Positions 10,441-17,326 of a DNA stretch of 64,000 bases are shown here, in pieces (the stretch's first letter is position 1; every line of letters begins with the position of its first letter). Under the pieces are notes generated by a model, which saw only the letters and a program-made list of their open reading frames with translations, was not told the origin of the DNA and ran no database searches. This DNA comes from Salinilacihabitans rarus (lineage in GTDB: Archaea; Halobacteriota; Halobacteria; Halobacteriales; Natrialbaceae). The translations under genes and the position numbers were made by a program. The stretch spans positions 3,100,001 through 3,164,000 of the forward strand of contig NZ_CP100762.1 in NCBI RefSeq assembly GCF_024296665.1. The letters are read 5' to 3'.

Positions 10441-11715
10441 ATGGACGACCGACTCGTCGCGCTGCGGCGGGACCTCCACCGCAGACCGGAACCCGCCTGG
10501 CGCGAGTTCTACACCACCGCGCGGATCGTCGCGGAACTCGACTCCCTCGGGATCGAGGACCTGCAACTGCACGTCGGCCCGGACGCCCTCGCCGGCGACC
10601 ACCGACTCGGCGTCCCCGAGGAGGCCGAACTCGCGCCGTGGTACGAGCGGGCCCGCGAGTACGACGTCGACGACGAGGTCCTCGACGCGCTGGCGGGGGG
10701 GTACACCGGTTCCGTGGCGGTCCTCGACCGCGGCGAGGGGCCGACGGTCGGCCTCCGGGTCGACATCGACGCCCTGCCGCGCGAGGAGGCAGACGACCCC
10801 GAGCACGTCCCCGCCGCGGAGGGCTTTCGCTCCGAACACGAGGGTACGATGCACGCCTGCGGCCACGACGCCCACGCGACGATCGGGGTCGGGGTCCTCC
10901 GGCGGATCGCCGAGAGCGACTTCGAGGGCACGCTGAAGGTGTTCTTCCAGCCCGCCGAGGAGGTCGTCGGCGGCGGCAAGCCGATGGCCGAGAGCGAACA
11001 CGTCGCCGACGTCGACTACCTGCTCGCGCTCCACGTCGGCCTCGACCACCCGACCGGCGAGGTCGTCGCGGGAATCGGCGGCTTCCTCGCCGTCTCTCAC
11101 CTCCGGGCGACGTTCCACGGGGAGTCCGCCCACGCGGGCGGCCGCCCCGAGGAGGGACGGAACGCGATCCAGGCGCTCGCGACCGCGGTGCAGAACTGCT
11201 ACGCGATCCCGCGCCACTCCGACGGCGCGACGCGGATCAACGTCGGCGTCGTCGAGGGCGGCGTCGCCCCCAACATCGTCGCCGAGGAGGCCACCCTCGT
11301 CGCCGAGGTCCGCGGCGAGACGACCGACCTCATGGAGTACATGGACGAGCGCGTCCGCCGAACCCTCCGGACGGCCGCGGAGATGCACGACTGCGAGGTC
11401 GAGATCGAGACCGGCGCGGAGGCGCCGAGCGCGACGAGCGACGCGGAACTCGCCGGGATCGTCGCCGACGTCGCGGGCGAGGTCGACGGGATCGAGACGG
11501 TCCTCGACCGCGACGACCTCGGCGGCAGCGAGGACGCCACCTACCTGATGCGGGCGGTCCAGGAGAACGGGGGCCGCGCCTGCTACGTCGGCGTCGGCAC
11601 CGACCACCCCGGCGGCCACCACACCGCCACGTTCGACGTCGACGAGGCGACCATCGGGCACGGGGTCGCGGTGCTCTCCGGGGCGATCGAACGGATCGCG
11701 GCGGAGCGGCCCTGA
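10441..11715 (+). CDS. M20 family amidohydrolase / aminoacylase
   Basis: 424-residue enzyme of the M20D amidohydrolase group (hippurate hydrolase, IAA-amino acid hydrolase, aminoacylase). The start RLVALRRDLHRRPEPAWRE is characteristic. Metal-site segments are visible: GTMHACGHDAHATIG, FFQPAEEVVGGGKPM and LHVGLDHPTGEV, with HPGGHHTATFDVDE near the C-terminus. It should remove an acyl group from an amino acid or peptide; the substrate is unknown. An insertion around residues 38-80 (LQLHVGPDALAGDHRLGVPE region) enlarges it slightly. Confidence 0.9.
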   Translation: MDDRLVALRRDLHRRPEPAWREFYTTARIVAELDSLGIEDLQLHVGPDALAGDHRLGVPEEAELAPWYERAREYDVDDEVLDALAGGYTGSVAVLDRGEGPTVGLRVDIDALPREEADDPEHVPAAEGFRSEHEGTMHACGHDAHATIGVGVLRRIAESDFEGTLKVFFQPAEEVVGGGKPMAESEHVADVDYLLALHVGLDHPTGEVVAGIGGFLAVSHLRATFHGESAHAGGRPEEGRNAIQALATAVQNCYAIPRHSDGATRINVGVVEGGVAPNIVAEEATLVAEVRGETTDLMEYMDERVRRTLRTAAEMHDCEVEIETGAEAPSATSDAELAGIVADVAGEVDGIETVLDRDDLGGSEDATYLMRAVQENGGRACYVGVGTDHPGGHHTATFDVDEATIGHGVAVLSGAIERIAAERP

Positions 11716-11785: not shown

Positions 11786-12445
11786 ATGGTCGACTACGCG
11801 ACGGTGGTGCTTGGGTTCGCGACGGCCGTCGGGGGCTACAGCGCCGCGCGGTATCTCGGGCGAGTCGAGACGACGCTGCTCGAAGCCAGCGAGCGTTGCG
11901 ACCGCGCCTGGGCGAACGTCGAGGTACTGCTCGAACGCCGCCACGACGAGGTCGGGTCGCTGATCGACCTCGCGGTCGAACACGTCGAGCACGAGCGGGA
12001 GGTCGTCCGGGACCTCCTCGAAGCCCGCGAGCGGGCCATCGAGGCCCAGCACCCGCCGGAGGCCGCGGCGGCGAGCGTCGAGGTGCGGGAGGCGCTGTCG
12101 GACCTCTACGCGCTCGCCGACGAGGTGCCGGAACTGCACTCGACCGACCGGTTCGACGACGTACGCGACGCCATCCGGGAGACCGAGCAGCGACTGGAGA
12201 ACCGCCGCGAGTACTACAACGAGGCCGTCGCGGCGTACAACGTGCGGCTCCGGCGGTTCCCCGAGCGGCTGTTCGCCCGTCGGCACGGCCTCGAACCCCG
12301 CGAGCCGTTCCGGGCGTCGGCGGCCGCCCGCGAGGGGGTCGACGTCCGCGAGCGGTTCGCGCGGCTCGATTCCGCCGCGGTTGGGCGAGCGGACGGCGAC
12401 CGAAACGACGACGCCGACGTCGGCGCCGGCCCCGCCTCGGACTGA
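11786..12445 (+). CDS. LemA family membrane-anchored protein
   Basis: 219-residue LemA protein. A short N-terminal hydrophobic stretch (VVLGFATAVGGYSAARYL) is followed by the long helical LemA core (ANVEVLLERRHDEVGSLIDL; then NRREYYNEAVAAYNVRLRRF). LemA proteins are envelope-associated, and bacterial LemA genes often sit with GIDE or M48-like genes; the function is poorly known. A TATA-like stretch at 11755-11763 supports the ATG at 11786 rather than the one at 11774. Nine bases separate it from the GIDE gene, indicating an operon. Confidence 0.9.
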   Translation: MVDYATVVLGFATAVGGYSAARYLGRVETTLLEASERCDRAWANVEVLLERRHDEVGSLIDLAVEHVEHEREVVRDLLEARERAIEAQHPPEAAAASVEVREALSDLYALADEVPELHSTDRFDDVRDAIRETEQRLENRREYYNEAVAAYNVRLRRFPERLFARRHGLEPREPFRASAAAREGVDVRERFARLDSAAVGRADGDRNDDADVGAGPASD

Positions 12446-12454
12446 GCCGGACCC

Positions 12455-13225
12455 ATGGTACTCGCGCCGTTTTTCTACCTCGTCATGTTGCTCGCCTCCG
12501 TCGCCGGGGTGTTCGTGGGCCTCGACGCCGTCGCCGACGGCTTCGCCCGGTACCGACAGGCGGTGACCATCGCCGACACGCCGCTGTCGACGCTCGACGC
12601 CGTCGCGGTCGGCCCGGCGGCGGTCTCCGGAACCGTCTCGGCCGACGGCTCGCCGCTCTCGCTGCCGGCCGACGGCCGGGAGTGCGTCGCCTACGACCTG
12701 ACGGTCGCCGACGACGGCTACGGTTCGACCCGGACCCCGCTGGAGGAGCGGCGGGCGACGGCGTTCACCCTCGAAACCGACCTCGGACGGGTCGGCGTCT
12801 CGCCGGCGGCCGTCGAGGGAGCCGAGTTCGACTTCACCGACGACCGCCGGGCGGAACGGACCGTCGCGAGCTACGAGGAGCCGTCCGAGCGCGTCGCCGA
12901 CTTCGAGCGCTCCCGGGACCTGCCCGACCGCGGGATGCGCTACGACCGGACGTTCGAACTGGCGTGGATCGAACCGGGCGACGAGTGCTACGCGTTCGGG
13001 CGGATCGACGCCGACGCGGAGTTCGACTCGGGCGACCGCAAGGGGGCCGTCCTCCGCGACGGCGACGTCACGCCGTTCCTCTCGGACAAGCCGCCGGCGC
13101 GGCTCCTGCGCGAGCGCCGGTTCGCGCTCGGGCGGTCCGTCGGCAAGGGACTCGTCCTCGCGACCGTCTCGCTCGCCGCCTTCCTGTGGCTCTCCGGGAT
13201 CGCGCAGCTGTTTCTGGGCGCCTGA
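12455..13225 (+). CDS. GIDE domain membrane protein (MUL1-like)
   Basis: 256-residue protein with an N-terminal helix (FFYLVMLLASVAGVFVGLDA), a soluble domain with the GIDE/BAM pattern (SGTVSADGSPLSLPADGREC, AYDLTVADDGY) and a C-terminal helix (GLVLATVSLAAFLWLSGIAQ). GIDE is the conserved domain of the mitochondrial E3 ligase MUL1; the prokaryotic form lacks the RING finger, so ubiquitin ligase activity is not expected. It follows lemA by nine bases, a pairing also seen in other prokaryotes, and probably acts with LemA at the membrane. Confidence 0.85.
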   Translation: MVLAPFFYLVMLLASVAGVFVGLDAVADGFARYRQAVTIADTPLSTLDAVAVGPAAVSGTVSADGSPLSLPADGRECVAYDLTVADDGYGSTRTPLEERRATAFTLETDLGRVGVSPAAVEGAEFDFTDDRRAERTVASYEEPSERVADFERSRDLPDRGMRYDRTFELAWIEPGDECYAFGRIDADAEFDSGDRKGAVLRDGDVTPFLSDKPPARLLRERRFALGRSVGKGLVLATVSLAAFLWLSGIAQLFLGA

Positions 13226-13227
13226 CG

Positions 13228-14229
13228 TTACGGCTCGTACGCGAACACGCGGTACGCGCCGACGACGAGGCCCCGGGCCCACCGCTGTCCGAGGTAGCCC
13301 GAGCCGAGCGCGACGACGAGCATGCCCCAGAAGAGCCGTACCCCGGGTTCGGAGCCGGCGAGTCGCTCGTAGAGCGATAGCTCGGCGAGCACGGCGAGGA
13401 GCGCGAACAGGAAGAACAGGGCGACGGCCGTCCAGAACCGGAGGTAGCGGTAGCTACCGTGGATCAGCCGGCGGACCCCCGCCGGGAGCGTCGACTCCCA
13501 CGCCGACAGCCGCGCTACCCCCCGCGCCAGCGCGACCAGCGGGAGGACGGCGACGCCGACGGCCAGAAGGGGGAGCGTCCGGAGCGAGAGGTCGAGGTCG
13601 TCGTCGCTCGCGCCCCCGTTCCCGTCCGCGTCGGCGTCCGCAACCGTCGGCGAGTCCCGGACGATCCACTCCGGCGGCCGCGGGGCGGTCTCCGGGTCGA
13701 CCAGCCGCTCCCGACAGTCGGTACAGAAGTCGGCCGCGCTCTCGTCGAGGCGGTGGAGAAACGGCGCCTCCTCCAGGACACAGCCCTCGTGGGTGCTCTC
13801 GAGGCCGAACAGCCGACCGAGCTGTTTGCGCACCTGCTTTGCGACGCGCTCGTCGAAGCGCTCGTCCTCGCCCTCGTCGAACCGGTAGGTCGAGACGACC
13901 GCGACGTCCCCGCCGACGTATCCCAGACCGAACAGGCTCGTCAGGTCGCGGTGTCGCACGGGGACGTCGGTCAGCCCCACCGCGAGGTCGGCCTCGCTCG
14001 CGTCCGCGACCGCTTCGAGGAGGGACCCGGCGTCGTACTGGTCGTCGGCGGCGAACTCGGCCGGCGTCGGCTCCGCTACCTCCGCCGGCGGCGGGCCGCG
14101 TCGCGTCCCGGCGACGGTGCCGACCGTCTCCTCGACCGTCGTGCGGGCGGTCGCGACCGCCCGCGAGGGGACGTCCCCGAGGGCGACGACGTCGACCGTC
14201 GGTCGGCGCTCGGGTGGGAACAGCGCCAT
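13228..14229 (-). CDS. Archaemetzincin-like protein, zinc site lost, with membrane domain
   Basis: 333-residue protein. Residues 10-175 follow the archaemetzincin (M54) order: a strand YDAGSLLEAV, DVAVVSTYRFDEG, then a would-be active site KQLGRLFGLESTHEGCVL and a CTDC knuckle at 169-172 with spacing close to the family x17. In M54 the site reads HExxHxxG; here it is K135-Q-L-G-R139, so all zinc-binding residues are gone while the Gly and structural cysteines remain. The C-terminal half adds three hydrophobic helices. It is convergent with and abuts the GIDE gene. A non-catalytic, membrane-bound partner is inferred. Confidence 0.75.
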   Translation of the reverse strand: MALFPPERRPTVDVVALGDVPSRAVATARTTVEETVGTVAGTRRGPPPAEVAEPTPAEFAADDQYDAGSLLEAVADASEADLAVGLTDVPVRHRDLTSLFGLGYVGGDVAVVSTYRFDEGEDERFDERVAKQVRKQLGRLFGLESTHEGCVLEEAPFLHRLDESAADFCTDCRERLVDPETAPRPPEWIVRDSPTVADADADGNGGASDDDLDLSLRTLPLLAVGVAVLPLVALARGVARLSAWESTLPAGVRRLIHGSYRYLRFWTAVALFFLFALLAVLAELSLYERLAGSEPGVRLFWGMLVVALGSGYLGQRWARGLVVGAYRVFAYEP

Positions 14230-14232
14230 CGC

Positions 14233-15639
14233 CTAGTACTTCGGCTCGGCTCCGGTCGTCTCGTAGACCCGCTCCATCAGGTCGTCGCGCTCGCGCCGCC
14301 AGGCGGCGAGGCCGTCGGGGCTCGACGGATACGCCTCGTAGTGGGCGAGGATCTCGTCGGCGCGGCGCTTCGTCCGGTAGAGGGTCCAGATCGTCCCCCA
14401 GTGGCCGCGGCTCTTCAGCAGCGACTCCAGCTTGAGCTTCCAGCCGACGTCGGTGCTGCCGGAGTACAGCGCCTCGGCGAGTTTGTCGCCGGGCAGCGCC
14501 GCCAGCAGCCCCATCAGGTCGTCGACGTCGACCGCCGTCGAGAGGACGTTGTAGACGTCGAGGGCGGCGTAGCGCGCGCCGAAGTGGTCCATCACGCGCT
14601 CGTTGTACCGCCAGAGGGTCTCCTCGCTCGGGTCGCCCGTCTCCAGGGCCTCGACGGCCTGTTCGGCGGCGTACTTCCCGGCGTAGGCGGCGCCCGCGAT
14701 GCCGCCGCCCGTGGTCGGGTTGACGTGGCCGGCGGCGTCGCCGACGGCGACGAACCCGGGGTGGACCGCCGAGTCGTACGGCCGGCGCGTCGGGAGCGCC
14801 GCGCCGAGTTTGTCCTCGACGCGCGCGCCGCGGAACTCCTCGCGCTCGCGGAGGTCGCGTTTGAGGTCCTCGACGAGTTTCATCGGCTCCTCGGTCATCT
14901 GGAAGCCCAGACCGGCGTTGATCTCGGTCTCGGTGCGCGGGAAGTACCAGAGGTAGCCCGCCGCGCGCTCGGTCGGCTTGAACACGAGCGCGTCGTGCCA
15001 GTCGACCGGCTCCTCGACGTGAACGATCTCGCGGTAGGCCGAGCAGAACTGCGAGTAGTCGACGTTCGTGTCGAACGTCGACGAGGAGAAGTCGACCTTG
15101 TCCTGCAGCAGCGAGAGCGACCCGGCGGCGTCGACCACGAGGTCGGCCTCGTACTCGCGGGGCTCGCCGTTCCGGGTCGCGCGCACGCCGGTGACGCGGC
15201 CGCCGTCGCCCTGGAGTACGTCCTGGACGACGGTGTCGTAGTGGAACTCGGCGCCGGCGGCTCCGGCCCCCTCGATGATCCGCCGGCCGTACTCCCAGCG
15301 GTCGATCACTGCGAGTTCGCCCGGCACCGGAATTTCGAGGACGGTGTCCTCCTGTGGGATCTCGAAGCGGCCGTGATCGACGTCCGTGTTCGTGAACGCG
15401 GGTTCGATCTGTGACTTCGGGATCGCGTCGGGGAAGGCGTCCGCGCCCTTTAGCGCGTCGCCGCAGGCGATGTGCCCGGCTTCCTCCTCGGTCTTTCGTT
15501 CGAGGACGACCACGTCGTACCCCTCGCGGGCGACCGTCGCGGCCGCGTAACAACCTGCCGTCCCTGCGCCGACGACGACCACGTCGGGCGATCGCGTCTC
15601 GCCCGCCGCGGCGCCGGCCGACCGTTCCTGGACGCTCAT
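14233..15639 (-). CDS. Geranylgeranyl reductase family flavoprotein
   Basis: 468-residue FAD enzyme that saturates double bonds of geranylgeranyl chains in archaeal lipids, quinones or related isoprenoids. It has an N-terminal dinucleotide site (VVVVGAGTAGCYAAATVARE), HIACGDAL, the family PxxYxWxFP-like segment ERAAGYLWYFP, and VAVGDAAGHVNPTTGGG near the FAD C-terminal part. The ATG at 15639 has an AT-rich box 29 bp before it. A divergent [2Fe-2S] ferredoxin gene lies 110 bp away and may supply electrons. Three bases separate its stop from the archaemetzincin-like gene, so they may be co-transcribed. Confidence 0.9.
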   Translation of the reverse strand: MSVQERSAGAAAGETRSPDVVVVGAGTAGCYAAATVAREGYDVVVLERKTEEEAGHIACGDALKGADAFPDAIPKSQIEPAFTNTDVDHGRFEIPQEDTVLEIPVPGELAVIDRWEYGRRIIEGAGAAGAEFHYDTVVQDVLQGDGGRVTGVRATRNGEPREYEADLVVDAAGSLSLLQDKVDFSSSTFDTNVDYSQFCSAYREIVHVEEPVDWHDALVFKPTERAAGYLWYFPRTETEINAGLGFQMTEEPMKLVEDLKRDLREREEFRGARVEDKLGAALPTRRPYDSAVHPGFVAVGDAAGHVNPTTGGGIAGAAYAGKYAAEQAVEALETGDPSEETLWRYNERVMDHFGARYAALDVYNVLSTAVDVDDLMGLLAALPGDKLAEALYSGSTDVGWKLKLESLLKSRGHWGTIWTLYRTKRRADEILAHYEAYPSSPDGLAAWRRERDDLMERVYETTGAEPKY

Positions 15640-15661
15640 GACCCGACTGTGTTGGCCGGAG

Positions 15662-15722
15662 TGAGAAAACGTTTTTCTTGCAATCTGTCGTCTTGCCGGG
15701 GCCAAAACGTGGATAAAAAGTA
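15662..15722. promoter_or_regulatory. Divergent promoter region of the reductase and ferredoxin
   Basis: Two AT-rich boxes face apart: AAAACGTTTTTC at about 15665-15676, ~29 bp before the reductase start on the minus strand, and ATAAAAAGTAA at 15713-15723, ~30 bp before the ferredoxin start. Both spacings suit leaderless transcription. Confidence 0.5.
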
Positions 15723-15749
15723 AAGTCGGGGTTGCGCGTAACGACTGCC

Positions 15750-16085
15750 ATGACGGAGTACACGGTCGAGTTCGTCGGCACCGGGGAGAGCATCACGTGC
15801 TCGGACAAGGAGACGATCCTCAGTCGCTGCCTCGAGGAGGGGATCGCACAGGAGTACTCCTGCCGCGTCGGGATGTGTCTGGCGTGTTCGGCGGAGATCG
15901 TCGAGGGCGAGGTCACCCAGCCGGCCGCCCGCGGGCTCACCGCGGCGGAAGCCGAGAACTACGCTCTCACGTGCATGGCCCGCCCACGGTCGGACCTCAA
16001 ACTCGAACGCGGGAAGTACCCACCGAGCATCGAGGCCGACCTCGAGGCCGCGGCCGACGGTGAACCGGCCGCCGCGGACGACTGA
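15750..16085 (+). CDS. Plant-type [2Fe-2S] ferredoxin
   Basis: 111-residue ferredoxin with cluster ligands C38, C43, C46 and C75 in the CxxxxCxxC...C spacing. It lacks the ~25-residue N-terminal insertion of the abundant haloarchaeal ferredoxin, so it is a different isoform. Divergent placement next to a geranylgeranyl reductase suggests it is that enzyme's electron donor; in Methanosarcina a ferredoxin is required for such a reductase. The C-terminus is acidic and alanine-rich. The ATG at 15750 has a TATA-like box ~30 bp upstream. Confidence 0.9.
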   Translation: MTEYTVEFVGTGESITCSDKETILSRCLEEGIAQEYSCRVGMCLACSAEIVEGEVTQPAARGLTAAEAENYALTCMARPRSDLKLERGKYPPSIEADLEAAADGEPAAADD

Positions 16086-16195: not shown

Positions 16196-17326
16196 TCAGT
16201 TGACGAAGTCGATGTCGCTTCCCTGTGGCTGGACGGCCTCCCCCTCCGGGCGGCCGTAGATCTGGGGCGACTCGACGCCGGTGACGACGATCATCGTGCG
16301 CATGCTCCCTTCGAGGTTCTCGTTGATCGAGGTCCCCCAGATGATACGCGCGTCGGGGTCGATCCGGTCGTAGATCTCCTCGACGACGCCCTCGGCCTCC
16401 TCGATGGACATGTCGTTGCCGCCGGTGACGTTGACCAGCGCGGAGTTGGCGCCGGAGATGTCGACGTCGAGCAGCGGCGAGCGAAGCGCCGTCTTGACCG
16501 AGTCCTCGGCTTTCGCCTCGGAGTCGGACTCGCCGAGGCCGATCATGGCGACGCCGCCCCGTTCCATGACCGTGCGGACGTCGGCGAAGTCGAGGTTGAC
16601 GAGGCCGGGTTTCGTGATCAGTTCCGTGATGCCTTTCACCGAGCGCATCAGCACCTCGTCGCTGACCTTGAACGCCTGCCGGACGGGGAGTTTGCCGACG
16701 GAGTCGAGCAGGCGGTCGTTCGGGACGACGATCACCGTGTCGGAGACGTCACGCAGCCGTTCGAGGCCGGCCTCGGCGTTCGTCCGGCGGACCTCGCCCT
16801 CCGCGGTAAAGGGCGTCGTGACGATCGAAATCGTCAGCGCGCCGGACTCGCGGGCGGCCTTGGCGACGACGGGCGCGGAGCCGGTGCCGGTGCCGCCGCC
16901 CAGCCCGGCGGTGACGAACACCATGTCCGAGCCCTCGATGGCGTCGTAGATGTCCTGCTGGCTCTCGAGGGCGGCCTCCTCGCCGACCTGCGGGAGCGAG
17001 CCGGCCCCCCGGCCGCCGGTCTTTTGCTCGCCCATCAGGATCTTCGTGTCGGCGTCGATCTCGACGAGGTGCTGGACGTCCGTGTTGGCGGCGACGAGTT
17101 TCGCGCCGTGGATGCCCTCCTCCTGCATCCGGTCGACGGTGTTGCCGCCGGCGCCCCCGCAGCCGACGACCGTGATGTCGGTCTGTAGCTCGTCGAGCAC
17201 GTCGAGCAGTTCGTCGTCGGTCATCGTCCCCGACGGGCCGTCTCCCGCCGGTTCTCCGCCGGCGGGGAACTCCTCGGCCTCCGCGGCCTCGGCCTCGTCG
17301 ATGGCGTCTTCGACAATGGAGTCCAT
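16196..17326 (-). CDS. ftsZ1: Cell division protein FtsZ1
   Basis: 376-residue tubulin-superfamily GTPase forming the division ring. It has the FtsZ glycine loop [15 protein letters not shown], the tubulin signature [13 protein letters not shown], and the T7 region [15 protein letters not shown] needed for GTP hydrolysis in the next subunit. The N-terminus [19 protein letters not shown] is the form seen in haloarchaeal FtsZ1, which organises division with FtsZ2. A GTAATTAC box at 17353-17360 is ~28 bp before the ATG. Confidence 0.95.

Follow-up and report, generated by a model that had tools for sequence, protein, structure and literature searches.

A gene in the 64,000-nucleotide window of Salinilacihabitans rarus DNA analysed here encodes a 333-residue, membrane-anchored pseudo-archaemetzincin (13228..14229, minus strand; hereafter pseudo-M54), a protein that belongs to the M54 family by fold and homology. 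It has lost the catalytic zinc site of that family and lies beside genes for LemA and GIDE, an association that recurs across the haloarchaea that carry it. Catalytic loss together with this near-constant adjacency suggests that an old protease has been reused as a binding part. On balance, we think that one clade of haloarchaeal LemA-GIDE systems probably has a dead, membrane-tethered archaemetzincin as its third subunit, which would bind clients instead of cutting them. Both the form with a membrane part and the near-obligate triad seem to be new, and pseudo-archaemetzincin, LemA and GIDE together apparently constitute an undescribed haloarchaeal module.

In the window, LemA (219 residues; 11786..12445, plus strand) consists of one N-terminal membrane segment and a helical domain and matches Pfam LemA (PF04011) with an E-value of 2e-34 and 119 bits, against a cut-off of 26.2. 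The GIDE/BAM-domain protein that follows (256 residues; 12455..13225, plus strand) has a beta-rich domain lying between one membrane helix at the N-terminus and another at the C-terminus. It has no Pfam match itself, 5 of 12 close orthologues match PF12483 (best 4e-6), and a Foldseek search of its model against the PDB returned no significant match. The pseudo-M54 gene runs convergently, its 3' end 2 nt from that of GIDE, and both the coordinates and the end-to-end arrangement given in the initial annotation were right. On the far side, a geranylgeranyl-reductase-family (GGR) gene (14233..15705, minus strand) ends 3 nt upstream of the pseudo-M54 start, a neighbourhood found in three related genomes only; beyond it lie a 2Fe-2S ferredoxin (15732-16085, plus strand) and an FtsZ-like gene named from its own sequence (16196-17326, minus strand). 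An M20-family amidohydrolase (10441..11715, plus strand) forms the other edge of an insertion interval common to relatives.

The archaemetzincin homology first proposed for this protein is borne out by database searches. Pfam PF07998 (M54) matches it above the model cut-off (E 1.9e-9), phmmer links it to the AmzA structures of Methanopyrus kandleri and Archaeoglobus fulgidus in the PDB (E about 5e-9), and NCBIfam archmetzin reports it at E 1.9e-18, its 67 bits falling under the 145-bit cut-off. In an AlphaFold2 model built from 20 orthologues the M54 domain has pLDDT mostly above 85, and the complete M54 fold (residues 10-177), sheet and backing helix included, is kept with high model confidence. 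Structural comparison with AmzA, set beforehand as a test, gave A. fulgidus and M. kandleri AmzA as the top Foldseek matches (E 1.4e-11 to 1.6e-9; TM-score by target length 0.80-0.87). The fold, the order of elements and knuckle cysteines C2, C3 and C4 are common to pseudo-M54 and the AmzA structures 2X7M, 3ZVS, 4AXQ and 3LMC. Unlike AmzA, pseudo-M54 has no HExxHxxGxxH, has often lost the Met-turn, often has the first knuckle cysteine replaced, with His-x2-Cys there, and carries both C-terminal membrane helices and the linkage to LemA-GIDE.

The fingerprint of A. fulgidus AmzA (AfAmzA) is HEXXHXXGXXHCX4CXMX17CXXC (PMC3427221). Against it the window protein has K-Q-R at the H1-E-H2 positions and S at H3; the lost motif, K135-Q-L-G-R139 in place of H-E-x-G-H, maps from its residue numbers to 13813..13827 on the minus strand. 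That motif, C150 and C169-x-x-C172 are exactly as initially described. Across 21 pseudo-M54 domains from 20 proteins, one of which has a tandem copy, the H-E-H-H set is kept in none: H1 is present once, the glutamate in four Haloarcula-type proteins, H2 in three domains and H3 in 0 of 21. Loss of the zinc site is therefore family-wide, and a search for orthologues with an intact HExxH (392 genomes; 21 domains) found none. Judged by this motif, pseudo-M54 would not be an active M54 zinc protease. Even canonical AfAmzA was inactive on the substrates tried (PMC3427221).

The knuckle (H147-x2-C150 ... C169-x2-C172; 13714..13791, minus strand), by contrast with the catalytic site, is kept, and is predicted to bind zinc. 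C2, C3 and C4, which are C150, C169 and C172 in the window protein, are present in 21 of 21 domains. Seven domains keep the original cysteine as first ligand; in most of the others a His or Cys placed two or three residues ahead of C2, in a His-x2-Cys or Cys-x2-Cys arrangement, could supply it. The least degenerate pseudo-M54, in genome G307 (L045:6707-7576), reads KQVGH, has all four knuckle cysteines and lies nearest canonical AmzA in the tree, making it a possible intermediate. Halosimplex pelagicum (L083:6803-8380) has tandem pseudo-M54 domains in one 525-aa protein, and in both copies the catalytic site is gone and the four knuckle cysteines are kept. The family shows clearly how an archaeal zinc protease has become a pseudo-enzyme, and in G307 a less degenerate member can still be seen.

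A low-confidence linker (residues 187-222) joins the M54 fold to the C-terminal part (216-330). The three membrane helices of the initial annotation correspond to three long helices in the model of the window protein (216-245, 250-291 and 297-330), and only the last two, a membrane hairpin, are constant across the family; the first is clearly hydrophobic in about one third of members. Other M54 matches in the order end near the knuckle, like canonical AmzA, and no case of an intact catalytic site together with a membrane part was seen in 392 Halobacteriales genomes. On its M54-domain side the hairpin tends to be bordered by basic residues, with a similar tendency for the soluble domains of LemA and GIDE, a charge pattern that suggests that all three soluble domains face the cytosol.

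Full-length pseudo-M54 occurs in 18 of 392 Halobacteriales genomes and in two named species, Halorientalis persicus and Halosimplex pelagicum. None was found outside Halobacteriales in a phylum sample of 197 genomes, some of them of the same order. A contig search with the single window protein gave no match, and one with a GIDE alignment gave eight named loci. No match to the module came from a plasmid collection, and the idea of a plasmid-borne module was dropped. A reading as a defence system was likewise abandoned, none of the three proteins matching the PADLOC anti-phage defence models.

The partnership with LemA and GIDE was strongly supported by a scan of haloarchaea for the gene triplet: pseudo-M54 abuts the pair in 19 of 20 genomes, 17 times convergently and twice co-directionally. 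A distinct GIDE subfamily, scoring 269 to 393 bits in 17 genomes (next best 119 bits), is present in 17 of the 18 sampled pseudo-M54 carriers and in none of 374 other genomes (Fisher p 7e-29, a descriptive value since species are not independent). The three genes are adjacent in all 17 of those genomes, as well as in H. persicus and H. pelagicum. In the convergent triads measured, the 3' ends of pseudo-M54 and GIDE range from an 18-nt overlap to a 70-nt gap; in G169 and G087, pseudo-M54, LemA and GIDE follow in that order on one strand. That the genes stay neighbours despite inversion points to a functional bond, and the mostly convergent orientation implies that in most genomes they do not form a single operon. 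Pairwise distances among LemA, GIDE and pseudo-M54 correlate at 0.59-0.86 (Mantel 0/2000), with shared species history left in. One genome, G300 (L046), has a full-length pseudo-M54 with no adjoining LemA-GIDE and no GIDE of the same clade anywhere in the genome, an orphan possibly left after partner loss.

LemA is itself rare, found in 13 of 146 Halobacteriales genomes. At nine LemA loci without pseudo-M54, from other Halobacteriales, GIDE lies beside LemA in eight; LemA-GIDE pairs thus occur in other haloarchaea without pseudo-M54, which is confined to one GIDE subfamily. In G301 (L096:3946-9820), LemA lies within a run of five GIDE paralogues, and neither M54 nor M48 is present there.

In a tree with 26 canonical AmzA sequences, pseudo-M54 occupies one side of a branch with support 95/96, and several terminal branches of this tree are long. 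Its dN/dS is 0.34-0.61 in eight of nine pairs, compared with 0.10 to 0.38 for LemA and GIDE; the ninth pair, at 1.14, is very close and has few substitutions. Between G169 and G087, canonical AmzA is 91% identical with an omega of 0.14, and pseudo-M54 69% identical with 0.35. Pseudo-M54 is thus mostly under purifying selection, retained but fast-changing, and its faster evolution is as compatible with relaxed constraint as with a binding surface that changes. Local decay of the window gene is ruled out, the site being lost in all orthologues and dN/dS mostly below 1.

NCBIfam already names a non-proteolytic archaemetzincin-like family, NF033824 (Myxo_non_zincin, named for myxobacteria), so the kind is known. 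Fifteen of the 20 pseudo-M54 members match this model at E <= 0.001. The window protein scores 36.8 bits, short of the 250-bit equivalog cut-off, and the archaeal model scores it higher. With 174 positions, NF033824 has no membrane part, unlike pseudo-M54. No curated model covers the pseudo-M54 family, and the window protein is under both NCBIfam archaemetzincin cut-offs. Among open-licence papers we found none joining archaemetzincin with LemA or GIDE, and a search for literature on LemA with M48, HtpX or GIDE returned nothing relevant.

The membrane complex with LemA and GIDE proposed in the initial annotation is plausible. In our working model, pseudo-M54 would be tethered to the membrane with its M54 domain in the cytosol, as a binding or scaffold subunit of a LemA-GIDE assembly. 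At the membrane, the former substrate cleft would hold either a client, protein or peptide, or a partner protease; what it holds would then be passed to the assembly, or the assembly itself regulated. More tentatively, and with less conviction than for the binding role as such, it is possible that the fast-evolving pseudo-archaemetzincin is the specificity subunit of a LemA-GIDE membrane machine, the part that recognises clients. The role of LemA has been described as unknown (PMC3905215) and the conserved function of the GIDE/BAM domain as an open question (PMC4457424); the eukaryotic RING is absent from the prokaryotic BAM/GIDE sequences examined (PMC4457424). A near-obligate third partner with a recognisable protease fold and without its catalytic residues makes the system testable: the prediction is that a stable complex forms in the membrane and that the cleft binds clients without catalysis. 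If true, a client-recognising subunit would offer a first way into what LemA and prokaryotic GIDE/BAM proteins do at the molecular level.

Pseudo-M54 might instead be a regulatory decoy that binds the substrates or a partner of the genome's canonical AmzA, or of another protease such as M48/HtpX, and at the membrane either holds that protease back or activates it. There is precedent in the magnetosome, where the degenerate protease MamO activates MamE and binds metal (PMC4794232) in the same system as the LemA protein MamQ (PMC3905215). The likeness, which also gives the binding model above a precedent, is one of arrangement only, a pseudo-protease of the membrane occurring together with a LemA protein: MamO has a trypsin-like serine-protease fold and is not homologous to M54. 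A potential target is at hand, as at least one further M54 match accompanies pseudo-M54 in 18 of 18 sampled carriers, and that of the window's genome, encoded elsewhere, is a canonical archaemetzincin with intact HEIGH. However, an M54 match of any kind is found in 387 of 392 haloarchaeal genomes, so co-occurrence with AmzA is uninformative here; no linkage of pseudo-M54 to AmzA genes was seen, and an M48 of the tested kind lies beside one triad locus only. We regard the decoy as unlikely.

Less probable still is an adaptor in which only the zinc-stabilised C-terminal subdomain and the hairpin matter, positioning LemA and GIDE while the cleft stays empty. Such an adaptor would account for the pattern of conservation, in which invariance in the alignment is limited to the knuckle cysteines and some glycines and the former cleft residues vary widely, but would have no need of the entire M54 fold, which is kept. 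Pseudo-enzymes at times regain chemistry, and this general precedent is what speaks for a redeployed enzyme with another metal or catalytic set in the old cleft; we give that idea very little credence, there being no family-wide conserved polar residue at the former catalytic positions in the 21 domains. A decaying gene hitch-hiking beside LemA-GIDE would explain a dN/dS above that of its neighbours, but is hardly tenable and is refuted as a general account: every carrier has an open frame, eight of nine pairs have an omega below 1, the cysteines have long been kept, and adjacency has held through inversion in 19 of 20 genomes.

The further idea of the initial annotation, that the pseudo-protease replaces an M48-type protease often found with LemA/GIDE, is not supported. 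None of the nine LemA loci without a triad has an M48 within the 10-15 kb examined, and in Natrialba swarupiae an intact M48 directly adjoins the LemA-GIDE-pseudo-M54 triad; no other triad locus has an M48 of the tested kind as a neighbour. The premise of an M48 companion therefore fails in haloarchaea, and replacement is rejected as a general rule. It stays only as a local synteny observation: in five triad-less relatives (L149-L152, L155) the M20-GGR interval holds an intact M48-type HExxH gene for a membrane protease, G112 has two M48-type genes in tandem, and Pfam M48 was confirmed for G344 and G112. The window has no M48 in its M20-GGR interval, and other M48 homologues lie elsewhere in the genome. 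Replacement of M48 is thus at most a local accident of the module's landing site. Near the start of the window, positions 9-584 give a weak M48-like match (33-36% identity) within a 360-aa open frame.
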